DNA of 64,000 bases from Bacteroidota bacterium (GTDB lineage Bacteria > Bacteroidota > JABWAT01), in assembly GCA_023151185.1 (NCBI GenBank), contig JAKLJL010000005.1, positions 1 through 64,000 of the forward strand, given 5' to 3'. Numbering within the stretch: position 1 is the first letter of the stretch; each line of letters begins with the position of its first letter. The position numbers and the translations under genes were made by a program. Positions 5,043-30,844 of this stretch are shown one piece after another. The notes below the pieces were generated by a model. The model was not told the origin of the DNA. It was given only the letters and a program-made list of their open reading frames with translations, and ran no database searches.

Positions 5043-5215
5043 CAGAAGGCAGAAGACAGGAGTCAGAAGACAGGAGTCAGAAGACAGGAGTCAGAAGACA
5101 GGAGTCAGAAGACAGGAGTCAGAAGTCAGAAGACAGGAGTCAGAAGTCAGAAGACAGGAGTCAGGAGTCAGAAGACGGTAGACAGGAGACAGTAGGTGGT
5201 AGACAGTAGATAGTA
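5043..5215. repeat. Heptad tandem repeat (CAGRAGN)n
   Basis: About 170 bases built from a 7-base unit, CAGAAGA alternating with CAGGAGT, so most of it repeats every 14 bases, drifting at the right end into gacagtagg-type units. There are no unique spacers, so it is not a CRISPR array. A degenerate stretch of the same unit recurs at about 6161-6207. Runs like this are prone to slippage and to assembly errors. Confidence 0.9.
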
Positions 5216-5244
5216 GGCAGTAGGTGGTTCTGGTGGCTGTCCTT

Positions 5245-5280
5245 CGGCAGGCTTGGTCCCTGAGCTGGGTCGAAGGGCAG
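5245..5280. repeat. Short dispersed repeat of the CCCTGAG...TCGAAGGG type
   Basis: CCCTGAG and TCGAAGGG separated by a few bases, preceded by a ccttcggcaggcttggt phrase; a second copy is at about 6342-6360. Similar intergenic repeats are, from memory, common in environmental genomes; function unknown. Confidence 0.6.
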
Positions 5281-5337
5281 GAACCGCTCAAAGCCACCAT
5301 TAGTAACCGGGCACTTCGAGAGCCTCAGTGTCCTTTT

Positions 5338-5640
5338 CCCCTCCTTTTCTAAAGGAGGGGTTAGGGGTGGTTTGGCTGTTTTCTCAGAACCCAAAGAAAA
5401 CCACCCCATCAATCGTCCAAAGTTTGCAGTTTTAATTAGCAGAATCGCGCCGTGCAGCGTGGGAGACGTTTCGTGCGTTTCAGATCCTGACCGAAAAACC
5501 ACAGAACCCATGAGTGTGGAGCAAGCCATCCGGTCAGGATGTGGGGGCAGGCGGGCAAAGGCAAGGAAACGGCGGGTTCGATTCTGCGCGGGATTTTTGG
5601 GTACTTTTTATCCGTAAAAAGTACCTCCCCGAAGGGAAAA
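5338..5640. repeat. Dispersed structured repeat, copy B (complete)
   Basis: This copy begins with a perfect 10-bp hairpin, CCCCTCCTTT/AAAGGAGGGG (5338-5360). The nested stems follow: outer GCAGAATCG/CGATTCTGC at 5439-5447 and 5579-5587, then inner ATCCTGACCG/CGGTCAGGAT and CCACA../TGTGG. It ends with the perfect hairpin GGTACTTTTT..AAAAAGTACC. It differs from copy A only by substitutions across the 149-base core. A CCGGCGTTTCGCCGG hairpin follows near 5663-5677. Confidence 0.88.
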
Positions 5641-6699: not shown

Positions 6700-8238
6700 T
6701 TACAGAATCGTGACGCCGATATATTGTGCCTGTCCGTCGGGAGTTTTGACCTTGAGCAGAACGGCATCTCCCTTTTCTTTTTTCGACAGAGCCGAATTGA
6801 CATCGTCCACCGATCTGACTTCCCGGCGGTCAACTTCAACAATGACAAGACCGGGCGCAAGATCCGAAAACCCGTTCTGTTTTGTTTTATTTACCATCAG
6901 GCCGGTTTCGGTTTTGTACTTGGTCATTTCAGCTTTGGTCAAGGGTCTCAGGTCAACTCCCAGTTTGCTCACCGAGGCATTCTGGGCGACGGCTTCATCC
7001 TCACTGTCCAGACCGGATTCACCCACCGAGGCCAGCGAGCCAAGTGAGTTGCGTTCAACCAGTGTCAGGGTGAAGGAACTTTCCTTCCCGTCCCGCCAGA
7101 TGACCATTTTTACTGCATCACCAGGGCGCTTCGAAGCTACAATTGCCTGAACCTGACTTCCCGAGGAAACGTCGGTCCCGTCAACTTTTAGAATCACATC
7201 TCCCTGTTTGATGCCGGCCTTTTCAGCAGGACCGTCGGCGACCACTTCCTGAACCAGCACCCCTTTTCCTGCAGCCAGCCCCAGCGCCTTGCTCAGTGTT
7301 CCGTCCATTTCCCTCATGCTAACGCCAACGAATCCACGCTTAACCTTTCCGTCCAGAATCAGATCTGTGGCGACTTTTTTAGCCAGATTCACCGGAATCG
7401 CAAATCCATATCCCTGATAACCGCCGGTGCTCGAAGCAATTGCCGAATTGATCCCGATGACAGCACCGTTCATGGCAATCAGCGGTCCACCTGAATTCCC
7501 GGGATTGATTGCAGCATCCGTCTGGATGAAGTTCTCAATTCCGTACCGGTCGCCGATGATGCCGATGTTTCTTCCGAGGGCAGAAATGATCCCGGCTGTG
7601 ACCGTTGAACTGAGGTTTTGGGAAAGCGGGGTTCCGATGGCAATGACCCAGTCACCCACCTCCAGTTTATCCGAATCGCCAAGCGGCGCAACTTCCAGAT
7701 CTTTGGCGTCGATTTTAATCACGGCAAGATCCGTTTGCGGATCCCGCCCGATCAGTTTGGCTGGGAATTCACGCTTATCAAATAAAATAACCTTCAACCC
7801 GTCTTCATCGGCCGATTCGACGACGTGGTTATTGGTCAGGATGTACCCTTCATCCGAGACGATCACCCCGCTTCCCGATCCGACAACCCGCTGGCCGCCG
7901 CCATTGGGCTGTTCGTTTTGCGGATAGTCCGGAAAAAACCGTTTAAAGAATTCGTCATTCCGGAACGGATTTCCGTTGGTTTTTGCTGTGCCTGAGACCT
8001 GGATGTAAACCACTGTCGGCAGCATTTCTTTCGAAACGGCCCGAAATCTGGGACTCGGATCAGGGATGTTGTCAAATTGCTTCAGATCAAAATTCCGGTT
8101 ACCGAGAAGAATCGTTTTCCTGTCGTCACCGAGGGCTGCCAGTCCGGCAGGCACCCAGTCCATTTTCATAAAGAACAGGGCGCCGATCAGAACCCCGGTG
8201 AGGATCAGGGTCATGTTTTTGAACAGAGACTTTTTCAT
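6700..8238 (-). CDS. degQ: HtrA/Deg family periplasmic serine protease
   Basis: 512 residues. An uncleaved anchor or signal (residues 8-24) is followed by a trypsin-like domain with the full triad: His138 in TNNHVV, Asp170 in TDLAV, and Ser249 in GNSGGP. Two PDZ domains follow (about 290-390 and 415-512). It acts as a periplasmic quality-control protease/chaperone. AAGGAAA lies upstream of the ATG. It is the last gene of a three-gene operon, 13 bases after recO. The Deg family is certain; which paralogue (DegP, DegQ or DegS) is not. Confidence 0.95.
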   Translation of the reverse strand: MKKSLFKNMTLILTGVLIGALFFMKMDWVPAGLAALGDDRKTILLGNRNFDLKQFDNIPDPSPRFRAVSKEMLPTVVYIQVSGTAKTNGNPFRNDEFFKRFFPDYPQNEQPNGGGQRVVGSGSGVIVSDEGYILTNNHVVESADEDGLKVILFDKREFPAKLIGRDPQTDLAVIKIDAKDLEVAPLGDSDKLEVGDWVIAIGTPLSQNLSSTVTAGIISALGRNIGIIGDRYGIENFIQTDAAINPGNSGGPLIAMNGAVIGINSAIASSTGGYQGYGFAIPVNLAKKVATDLILDGKVKRGFVGVSMREMDGTLSKALGLAAGKGVLVQEVVADGPAEKAGIKQGDVILKVDGTDVSSGSQVQAIVASKRPGDAVKMVIWRDGKESSFTLTLVERNSLGSLASVGESGLDSEDEAVAQNASVSKLGVDLRPLTKAEMTKYKTETGLMVNKTKQNGFSDLAPGLVIVEVDRREVRSVDDVNSALSKKEKGDAVLLKVKTPDGQAQYIGVTIL

Positions 8239-26452: not shown

Positions 26453-26460
26453 ATCAGGAC

Positions 26461-26835
26461 GGAAGTGCGCCTGTAAGCCGAATTCTGTTCATCCTGCCGG
26501 TTGCCCTCCGGCCGGCAGGTTTGGTTATCATTGATCTGTTCACGGCATTGCTGCCGGAATCAAGCGGCCTACCCGGAAGCAGAGACGAGCAGCCCCGTTG
26601 CTTCCCTACATGGCCTTGCTTCTGCCGGGGTTTACCAAGCTGACCCTGTTACCAGAGTCACTGGTGGTCTCTTACACCGCCGTTTCACCCTTACCCCGGT
26701 TTTCACCGGGGCGGTCTGTTTTCTGTGGCACTTTCCATGGCGTCACCGCCTCCCTGCCGTTAGCAGGGCGGCATGCTCTGTGAAGTTCGGACTTTCCTCC
26801 CATTTTGAAAATGAGCGATAACCCGGCGCACTTCC
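26461..26835 (-). ncRNA. rnpB: RNase P RNA (bacterial type A)
   Basis: The catalytic RNA of RNase P, which trims tRNA 5' ends. The terminal P1 stem GGAAGTGCGCC/GGCGCACTTCC closes the molecule at both ends, fixing a length of about 375 bases. The conserved block GAGGAAAGTCCGAAC appears near the 5' end and an ACAGAA-type conserved segment near the 3' end. TATTTTTG lies 5 bases before its first base, which is useful for calibrating where transcription starts in this genome. Confidence 0.96.
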
Positions 26836-29256: not shown

Positions 29257-29288
29257 TTGATTTTTTGGCACAGGCATTGCTACCTTTG
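29257..29288 (+). promoter_or_regulatory. Overlapping sigma-54-like and Bacteroidota-type promoters
   Basis: TGGCAC (29266-29271), 5 bases, TTGCT (29277-29281): GG and GC are exactly 10 bases apart, matching the sigma-54 minus-24/minus-12 pattern at all but one position. Starting at the last T of that site is TACCTTTG (29281-29288), a full TAnnTTTG element, with TTG at 29257-29259 21 bases upstream. Both predict starts at 29292-29294. Confidence 0.6.
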
Positions 29289-29291
29289 TAT

Positions 29292-29408
29292 CGCTAGCCG
29301 ACGGTAGTTCTTCATACGTCGGTTATCACACCTAAAAAAGCCTCGTTTTAAAAGCCTACCTTATACTCGGGATCAAAGCCGGGCTGTGCAATGCAGTCCG
29401 GCTTTTTA
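29292..29408 (+). ncRNA. Candidate small RNA
   Basis: About 115 bases from the predicted start to the end of an intrinsic terminator, with no open frame of note. The first stem pairs TAGCCGACG (29295-29303) with CGTCGGTTA (29317-29325) over a 13-base loop. A single-stranded linker of about 50 bases follows, with three CCT motifs and a direct repeat AAAAGCCT (29336-29343 and 29350-29357). A 12-bp terminator stem closes it. CCT motifs could pair with AGGAG ribosome binding sites. I cannot match it to a known RNA family from memory. Confidence 0.6.
29375..29408 (+). terminator. Terminator of the candidate small RNA
   Basis: AAAGCCGG-G-CTG pairs with CAG-T-CCGGCTTT (12 bp including one G-T) over a 7-base loop, followed by TTTTTATTTT. 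It lies well upstream of gltA, so it does not end a protein gene. Confidence 0.85.
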
Positions 29409-29551
29409 TTTTCCGGAAAATTGAACTCAACACCCGGTACGAATGTTATCGAAAAAAGCAATCCATCACTTTCTTTTTAATCTGATTTTCATGATTTTGC
29501 AGTGATGCAATCAGAGTCAGCAGAATAGATTCAGAAAAGGAATTCAGTTTT

Positions 29552-30844
29552 ATGTCAGAAACAGCCTCCCTTATCCTCGGAGACAAAACGTACAGCCTGC
29601 CTGTTGTAACCGGAACAGAAAATGAGAAAGCCATCGATGTTACTTCCCTGAGAAATACCACGGGGTTTATCACCCTGGATTCCGGGTACATGAATACCGG
29701 TGCAGCCATCTCAAATATTACCTATCTGGATGGTGAAAACGGGATTCTGAGATACCGGGGGATCCCGATTGAACAGCTTGCTGAAAAATCAACATTCGTT
29801 GAAACTGCCTATCTGCTGATTTACGGAAAACTTCCAAACCGGGAAGAACTCTCCAAATGGTCTCAGGCACTGACCGAGCATTCGTACATCCATGAGGATA
29901 TGAAACACTTTTTCGACGGGTATCCGTCGACTGCCCACCCGATGGCTATTCTGTCATCAATGGTGAGTACACTTTCAATCCACTATCCCTGGGCGCTTAA
30001 ATCTACTTTAAATGCTGAGGAAAAATACCGGATTTTTGTTCTCCTTCTTGCAAAAATGAGAACAATTGCAGCTTACTCATACAAAAAATCAATCGGTGAA
30101 CCCTATATCTATCCGACCGATGATTTCAGCTACTGCGCCAATTTCATGAATATGATGTTTGCCCACCCAAGCCGCCGGTATCAGGTCAATGAAACTCTGG
30201 TTAAAGCGCTTAACCTTATTTTTGTCCTTCATGCAGATCATGAACAGAACTGCTCAACCTCTACAGTTCGGCTTGTTGGAAGTTCACGTGCGAATCTGTT
30301 TGCCACTATCTCTGCTGCAATCGGGGCACTCTGGGGACCGCTGCACGGGGGTGCCAACCAGGAAGTAATTGAAATGCTGGAACAGATCCGGGATGATGGC
30401 GGAAATGTTAAAAAATGGGTTGAAAAGGCTAAGGACAAAGATTCCGGATTTCGGTTGTATGGGTTTGGGCACCGGGTTTATAAAAACTTTGACCCCAGAG
30501 CCAATATTATTAAAAAATCGGCCGATGAAGTTTTAAATGCGTTGGGCATTAACGACCCACTTCTTGAAATTGCCAAGAAACTGGAAGAAGCGGCCCTTCA
30601 TGATCAGTACTTTATTGATAAAAAGCTGTATCCGAATGTGGATTTTTATTCCGGAATTATCCTGAAGGCAATGGGAATTCCGGTTAATATGTTTACTGTG
30701 ATGTTTGCCATCGGCAGGTTGCCCGGTTGGCTGGCTCACTGGAAGGAAATGGTCGAAGCTCCTGACTTTAAAATCGGGCGGCCGCGTCAGGTCTATAACG
30801 GCCCGGCATTGAACAGCTACATTCCGCTTGATCTCAGAAAGTAA
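29552..30844 (+). CDS. gltA: Citrate synthase
   Basis: 430 residues, the long hexameric-type form. Active-site motifs: HADHEQNCSTSTVRLVGSS (catalytic His in the first part), GPLHGGANQ and GFGHRVYKNFDPRA, with an Asp later for the third catalytic position. It condenses acetyl-CoA and oxaloacetate to start the TCA cycle. AAAAGGA lies 10 bases before the ATG. A weak minus-7 match (TGATTTTG at 29492-29499) may be its promoter. The small RNA gene sits directly upstream and a strong terminator downstream. Confidence 0.96.
   Translation: MSETASLILGDKTYSLPVVTGTENEKAIDVTSLRNTTGFITLDSGYMNTGAAISNITYLDGENGILRYRGIPIEQLAEKSTFVETAYLLIYGKLPNREELSKWSQALTEHSYIHEDMKHFFDGYPSTAHPMAILSSMVSTLSIHYPWALKSTLNAEEKYRIFVLLLAKMRTIAAYSYKKSIGEPYIYPTDDFSYCANFMNMMFAHPSRRYQVNETLVKALNLIFVLHADHEQNCSTSTVRLVGSSRANLFATISAAIGALWGPLHGGANQEVIEMLEQIRDDGGNVKKWVEKAKDKDSGFRLYGFGHRVYKNFDPRANIIKKSADEVLNALGINDPLLEIAKKLEEAALHDQYFIDKKLYPNVDFYSGIILKAMGIPVNMFTVMFAIGRLPGWLAHWKEMVEAPDFKIGRPRQVYNGPALNSYIPLDLRK

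Follow-up and report, generated by a model that had tools for sequence, protein, structure and literature searches.

Within the 64,000-nucleotide stretch of Bacteroidota DNA analysed here (the window) there is a short element lying between the tRNA-Leu/nif3 genes and gltA, and judging from its layout and conservation this element is almost certainly a regulatory RNA (Table 1). The predicted transcript is about 117 nt long, with a 5' hairpin and an intrinsic terminator separated by a single-stranded linker, and the 5' arm of the terminator forms part of the main pairing element. The fold has z = -3.84, and none of 200 shuffles was equally stable. Nearby on the other strand is a class A RNase P RNA (26458-26834(-), 307 bits), close to genes for a C4 zinc-ribbon protein and nif3.

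Table 1. Features of the sRNA locus and its neighbour, in window coordinates.
Feature	Position	Strand	Remarks
-33-like TTG, Bacteroidota-type housekeeping promoter	29257..29259	+	TTG-N21-TACCTTTG here; TTG-N19-TATCTTTG in G003
sigma-54-like TGGCAC-N5-TTGC	29266..29280	+	TGGCAC and CATTG invariant in four genomes
-7 box TACCTTTG (TAnnTTTG)	29281..29288	+	kept in 4/4 genomes
sRNA gene, predicted transcript	29292..29408	+	syntenic and conserved in 4/4 class genomes; covariance model 158-176 bits
5' hairpin, 9 bp	29295..29325	+	arms 29295-29303/29317-29325; three stem pairs changed on both sides, pairing kept
linker, single-stranded, near-invariant, ~50 nt	29326..29374	+	between 5' hairpin and terminator
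second pairing element CCTCGTTTT	29341..29349	+	complement of AACGAGG at the RHS-gene RBS (G001/G002)
main pairing element TTATACTCGGGATCAAAGCCGGG	29361..29383	+	22/23 bases complementary to the RHS leader in G000; covaries in G003
intrinsic terminator	29375..29408	+	stem 29375-29405 plus T tract; two pairs changed on both sides, pairing kept
gltA, citrate synthase	29552..30844	+	downstream neighbour in 4/4 genomes; not a predicted pairing target

An earlier note on this DNA had proposed an undescribed sRNA gene with no protein gene between its promoter and terminator, and this is borne out. There is no ORF of at least 40 amino acids within the predicted transcript, and no family of Rfam 15 matches it at gathering score, RNase P and tRNA being the only hits in the window; readings of the element as protein-coding or as a known RNA family were dropped on these grounds. 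The 9-bp hairpin is found by direct reading just as described. The terminator is likewise present, with a stem of 13-14 bp where the note had given 12, and the linker does contain a repeated motif (AAAAGCCT, twice) but four CCT motifs instead of three.

We have compared all four available genomes of the class, namely its own (G000), two of the same genus, g1 (G001 and G002), and one of another genus in the same family (G003). Upstream of the RNA two promoter-like elements overlap and share one T, a claim of the earlier note that the letters confirm. One is of the Bacteroidota housekeeping type, with a predicted transcription start at 29292-29293 and the TAnnTTTG -7 consensus at -12 to -5, as in the flavobacterial promoter map (PMC9723704). 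TTG-N19/21-TAnnTTTG with legal spacing is found in all four genomes. Strings of the form TTG-N19-21-TAnnTTTG are not rare on their own (four in the window, about one per strand in shuffles), so that it is the conservation that counts.

The second element is sigma-54-like, with TGGCAC at 29266-29271 and TTGCT at 29277-29281, and 10 bases between the GG (29267-8) and the GC (29279-80). The last T of TTGCT is the first T of the -7 box TACCTTTG. The sRNA is perhaps also transcribed by sigma-54, to go by this motif, as the note had proposed. TGGCAC-N5-TTG is kept in all four genomes, with substitutions confined to the spacer, and rpoN, which the note had named as a gene to look for, is present (G000 C26:92631-93104, 184 bits); but only G000 has GC at the -12 position, where G001-G003 have GT. 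It is conceivable, though doubtful, that sigma-54 is the main sigma factor, placing the RNA under nitrogen- or stress-type control. This would concern the promoter only and is compatible with our preferred explanation of the RNA. The conserved core and the rpoN gene speak for it; against it stand the replacement of the -12 C by T in three genomes, and the occurrence of exact TGGCAC-N5-TTGC only four times in G000, two of them within genes; no activator site was recognised. The note had regarded a dual start at one position as unusual, but there is a precedent for overlapping promoters on an sRNA in enterobacterial GlmY, whose sigma-54 promoter perfectly overlaps its housekeeping promoter according to the account in PMC6075780 (citing Reichenbach et al. 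2009).

All four class genomes have the gene, each time with tRNA-Leu/nif3 on one side and gltA on the other. Covariance-model scores are 158-176 bits in these four and at most 38.6 elsewhere among the 296 phylum genomes searched; by this search the RNA is absent from the 292 phylum genomes outside the class, where scores reach up to 33 bits and are probably terminator matches. Viral contigs and plasmids were also searched and contained no match. From this distribution the sRNA appears to be a lineage-specific RNA family. A weak match on contig C43 of G001 was set aside as a terminator match only. Elsewhere in G001 (C105, L157:1696-1818(-), 38.6 bits) there is a diverged sRNA copy that has CCTTATACTCGGGATC and ends in another kind of terminator-like hairpin, and G002 contains a shorter sibling-like RNA (L217, C36:77415-77529, +) with a TATTTTTG box and ACTCGGGATC directly before the terminator, lacking the 5' hairpin.

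Related genomes also uphold the hairpins and terminator that the note had predicted, with five pairs changed on both sides and pairing kept (three in the 5' hairpin and two in the terminator, among only four sequences). It is this conservation with compensatory changes in every class genome that decisively marks the unit as more than chance. The linker by comparison is almost fixed, as CACACCTAAAAAArCCTCGyTyTAAAA(G)CCTACCTTATACTCGGGATCAAA in the four genomes, a pattern typical of RNAs acting via their unpaired part. Promoter and terminator are kept in all four genomes around a predicted transcript with no internal ORF, as in an independent short non-coding gene, and we consider it likely that the element is such a gene, presumably expressed, encoding a trans-acting base-pairing sRNA.

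The constant position immediately before gltA, with matching orientation, raises the alternative that the RNA is the gltA 5' leader, terminating by default with conditional read-through in the manner of an attenuator or riboswitch. Between the terminator and gltA (29409-29551) there is no recognisable TTG/TAnnTTTG promoter in G000 or G003, which leaves room for read-through. However, the terminator is strong in all four genomes, and in G003 its arms have changed while the linker has not, so the linker would form no antiterminator with them. This independence makes attenuation less likely, and such a leader would moreover leave unexplained why a distant RHS leader, described below, matches the RNA and covaries with it; we regard this explanation as improbable. 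The note had mentioned regulation of gltA as an inference; direct regulation by pairing finds no support and was dropped, gltA ranking last of 64 ORF starts. In the interval between terminator and gltA, G000 shares a T-rich stretch CTTTCTTTTT..TTTTCATGATTTT with G001 and G002.

When each class genome is searched with the linker, its best antisense match falls in the 5' leader of a gene for an RHS protein. The E values are 7.3e-4 in G000, 1.6e-3 in G001 and 1.6e-3 at two places in G002; in G003, with its own sRNA as query, E is 1.2e-4 and the next match 1.5. After the RHS leaders comes the diverged sRNA copy in G001 (0.04) and then noise, other antisense matches in G000-G002 having E values of 0.4 or worse. 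Searched genome-wide, antisense matches revealed no further conserved target. In this RNA a conserved single-stranded seed finds its complement in the leader of a distantly encoded mRNA. Exact intergenic copies of the site occur only at the sRNA gene and the RHS loci. Copies with one mismatch are many and lie mostly inside genes, so their excess over a reversed-pattern control is a coding effect, the exact RHS-locus matches apart.

The predicted target codes for a secreted protein that is 2,402-2,528 residues long and contains RHS/YD repeats together with an RHS-associated core domain. The leader of this gene, taken as the stretch between a TAnnTTTG-type promoter and the start codon with start sites placed from the promoter boxes, is 147-156 nt long in g1 and 239 nt in G003, and the pairing site falls within this stretch. 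In g1 the site is CCGGCUUUGAUCCCGAGUAU, 40-66 nt upstream of the start codon; in G000 it has been kept while the rest of the leader diverged. The G003 gene and its site are at another chromosomal place, with two sites in tandem in the leader, some 200 nt upstream of the start codon. One of the two best matches in G002 has the RHS leader and first codons placed before an unrelated short ORF.

Several further features of these islands were observed. The G002 locus just mentioned (C6, L155:10416-11099(+)) carries an unrelated 227-aa ORF joined to the RHS leader and signal-peptide start, with several short ORFs for secreted proteins after it, and looks like a displaced RHS cassette array. A perfect palindrome GTAAACGTTTAC of the LacI-family/cre operator type lies upstream of each g1 RHS leader promoter (L126, L127, L129, L155) and not upstream of the G003 RHS leader; it suggests carbon-related transcription control. 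Downstream of RHS genes there are leader-like repeats (L152:~7400-7650(-), L154:~5100-5430(-), L174:1115-1560(+)) carrying a promoter TTGACnTTGGAAGCGCTT..TAnTnTTGTCAC, hairpins, GATCCCGAGT or CCGGCTTTGGTTCCGA and then a strong GC hairpin. They are possible sponge RNAs or cassette leaders.

The sRNA and the RHS leader can form 17-20 contiguous base pairs, whereas none of 751 background tiles (170 bases each, on both strands of the window) exceeds 14. The main pairing element of the sRNA is UACUCGGGAUCAAAGCCGG, and the g1 site makes 20 contiguous pairs with the sRNA, with one mismatch in G000. No pairing is obtained (z +1.5) for an RHS homologue, at G001 C117, that lacks the site. Whole-duplex energies discriminate poorly, the RHS target at -48.0 being only modestly separated from the next of 64 gene starts at -44.9, and contiguous-helix counts were used in their place. 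A second stretch, CCTCGTT, lies opposite the RBS of the RHS gene in g1, where the RBS is AACGAGG in G001 and G002 and AAAACAAGG, with one mismatch to CCUCGUU, in G000. The note had proposed that the CCT motifs pair with AGG ribosome binding sites, and this holds for CCUCGUU at the RHS RBS, more weakly and in g1 only; the main element is however UACUCGGGAUCAAAGCCGG, and its site lies upstream.

The two partners have changed together between the genera, as AAAGCCGG/CCGGCTTT vs AAAAGTCG/CGACTTTT, G003 having AUCAAAAGUCG in the sRNA and CGACUUUUGAU in the RHS leader. The compensation across species amounts to just one substituted pair and one paired insertion among only four genomes. Each leader prefers its own sRNA, the G003 leader giving -44.5 kcal/mol with its own and -35.8 with that of G000, and the G000 leader -40.7 kcal/mol with its own and -33.8 with that of G003. 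The seed UACUCGGGAUCAAA, which includes UACUCGGGAUC, is open in the sRNA; its opening costs 4.4-5.3 kcal/mol, and alone it gives -18 to -23. For the terminator arm the opening cost is 15-21 kcal/mol, so that the net energy is about -12 to -19. The predicted pairing of sRNA and RHS leader is well supported, and for a purely comparative analysis the RHS target is unusually clear.

Could the common sequence instead be a DNA-level element, a recombination or protein-binding site of the RHS islands, with the RNA match incidental? The islands rearrange, related sequences recur in them, and terminators in these genomes often contain CCGGCTTT. Yet the match is always antisense, falls between promoter and start codon and stops at the end of the pairing element, the hairpins of the sRNA covary as RNA, and the duplex itself has a compensatory change in G003. 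We consider a DNA element very improbable.

We conclude that the RNA beside gltA is probably a new regulatory RNA controlling a giant secreted RHS-repeat protein. It would be read from the TTG/TAnnTTTG promoter, perhaps also by sigma-54, and the exposed UACUCGGGAUCAAA would pair with the 5' leader of the RHS mRNA, the duplex then extending into the 5' arm of the sRNA's own terminator. In g1 CCUCGUU would also cover the RBS of the RHS mRNA and block ribosomes. The outcome would be repression of RHS translation, probably with lowered mRNA stability, without Hfq. By Pfam search Hfq is absent from G000-G003, with control genomes positive, so this would not be an Hfq-dependent sRNA. Repression is the most likely sign, because the g1 RBS element would block ribosomes and long RNA duplexes usually make mRNAs accessible to RNases. 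G000 has a weaker form of the RBS element and G003 no evident one; in G003 the site is moreover distant from the start codon. Occlusion of the RBS would therefore not be the whole mechanism in G003; binding near the 5' end of the leader is what is left there, and the effect would have to come from mRNA decay or from refolding of the leader.

The relation might also be reversed: RHS leaders and leader-like RNAs would titrate the sRNA as sponges or open it as activators, and its main targets would be other mRNAs. What makes a sponge relation possible is that downstream of RHS genes in G000, G001 and G002 there are recurring leader-like repeats, some ending in terminator-like hairpins, whose site is identical or wobble-compatible (GATCCCGAGT or CCGGCTTTGGTTCCGA). 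Pairing would also dismantle the sRNA terminator. The linker is conserved beyond the parts that pair with RHS, including CACACCUAAAAAA, which has no explained pairing role, so that the RNA may have further targets or a partner protein. On the other side, the genome-wide search found no other conserved target, and the RBS complementarity in g1 marks the RHS mRNA as the target; the reversed relation is unlikely. We likewise give little chance to a wider scheme in which one sRNA from an overlapping sigma-54/housekeeping promoter controls polymorphic-toxin-like RHS islands by opening its own terminator on the target, the leader destroying or opening the sRNA, possibly with read-through into gltA, and the island leader copies serving as sponges.

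Giant RHS proteins in other bacteria serve competition between cells. Beyond the well-studied Proteobacteria and Firmicutes, few sRNAs have identified targets to our knowledge, and the number is smaller still in lineages lacking Hfq; sRNA control of RHS genes did not turn up in our literature searches. In the present case a candidate sRNA gene, its seed and its target come from comparative sequence alone, in a barely studied class. If the proposed repression is correct, a housekeeping locus in the gltA neighbourhood, possibly with sigma-54, is tied to production of a giant RHS protein.

By analogy the sRNA would work like known base-pairing sRNAs such as GibS, with no kinship seen. GibS of Bacteroides thetaiotaomicron is an intergenic sRNA of ~145 nt that pairs with translation initiation regions (PMC7366714), and like the RNA here it has a long conserved single-stranded seed and a Rho-independent terminator in a lineage without Hfq. 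Its seed is however at the 5' end, whereas here it is in the 3' half next to the terminator, and its targets are metabolic enzymes and not an RHS protein (PMC7366714). GlmY shares the overlapping sigma-54/housekeeping promoter, where sigma-54 use by the present RNA is putative, but acts as a decoy for RapZ and is not known to pair with mRNA in a comparable way (PMC6075780). The Qrr sRNAs of Vibrio also pair with 5' leaders, and their target genes function in interbacterial antagonism (T6SS); unlike our RNA, with its RHS target and absence of Hfq, they have several stem-loops, depend on Hfq and belong to quorum sensing (PMC11443567). Rfp18 of Flavobacterium psychrophilum is likewise an sRNA of a bacterium with TAnnTTTG promoters and affects secreted proteins; it differs in its predicted pairing with protease mRNAs via a third stem-loop, and no relation to it is apparent (PMC9723704).
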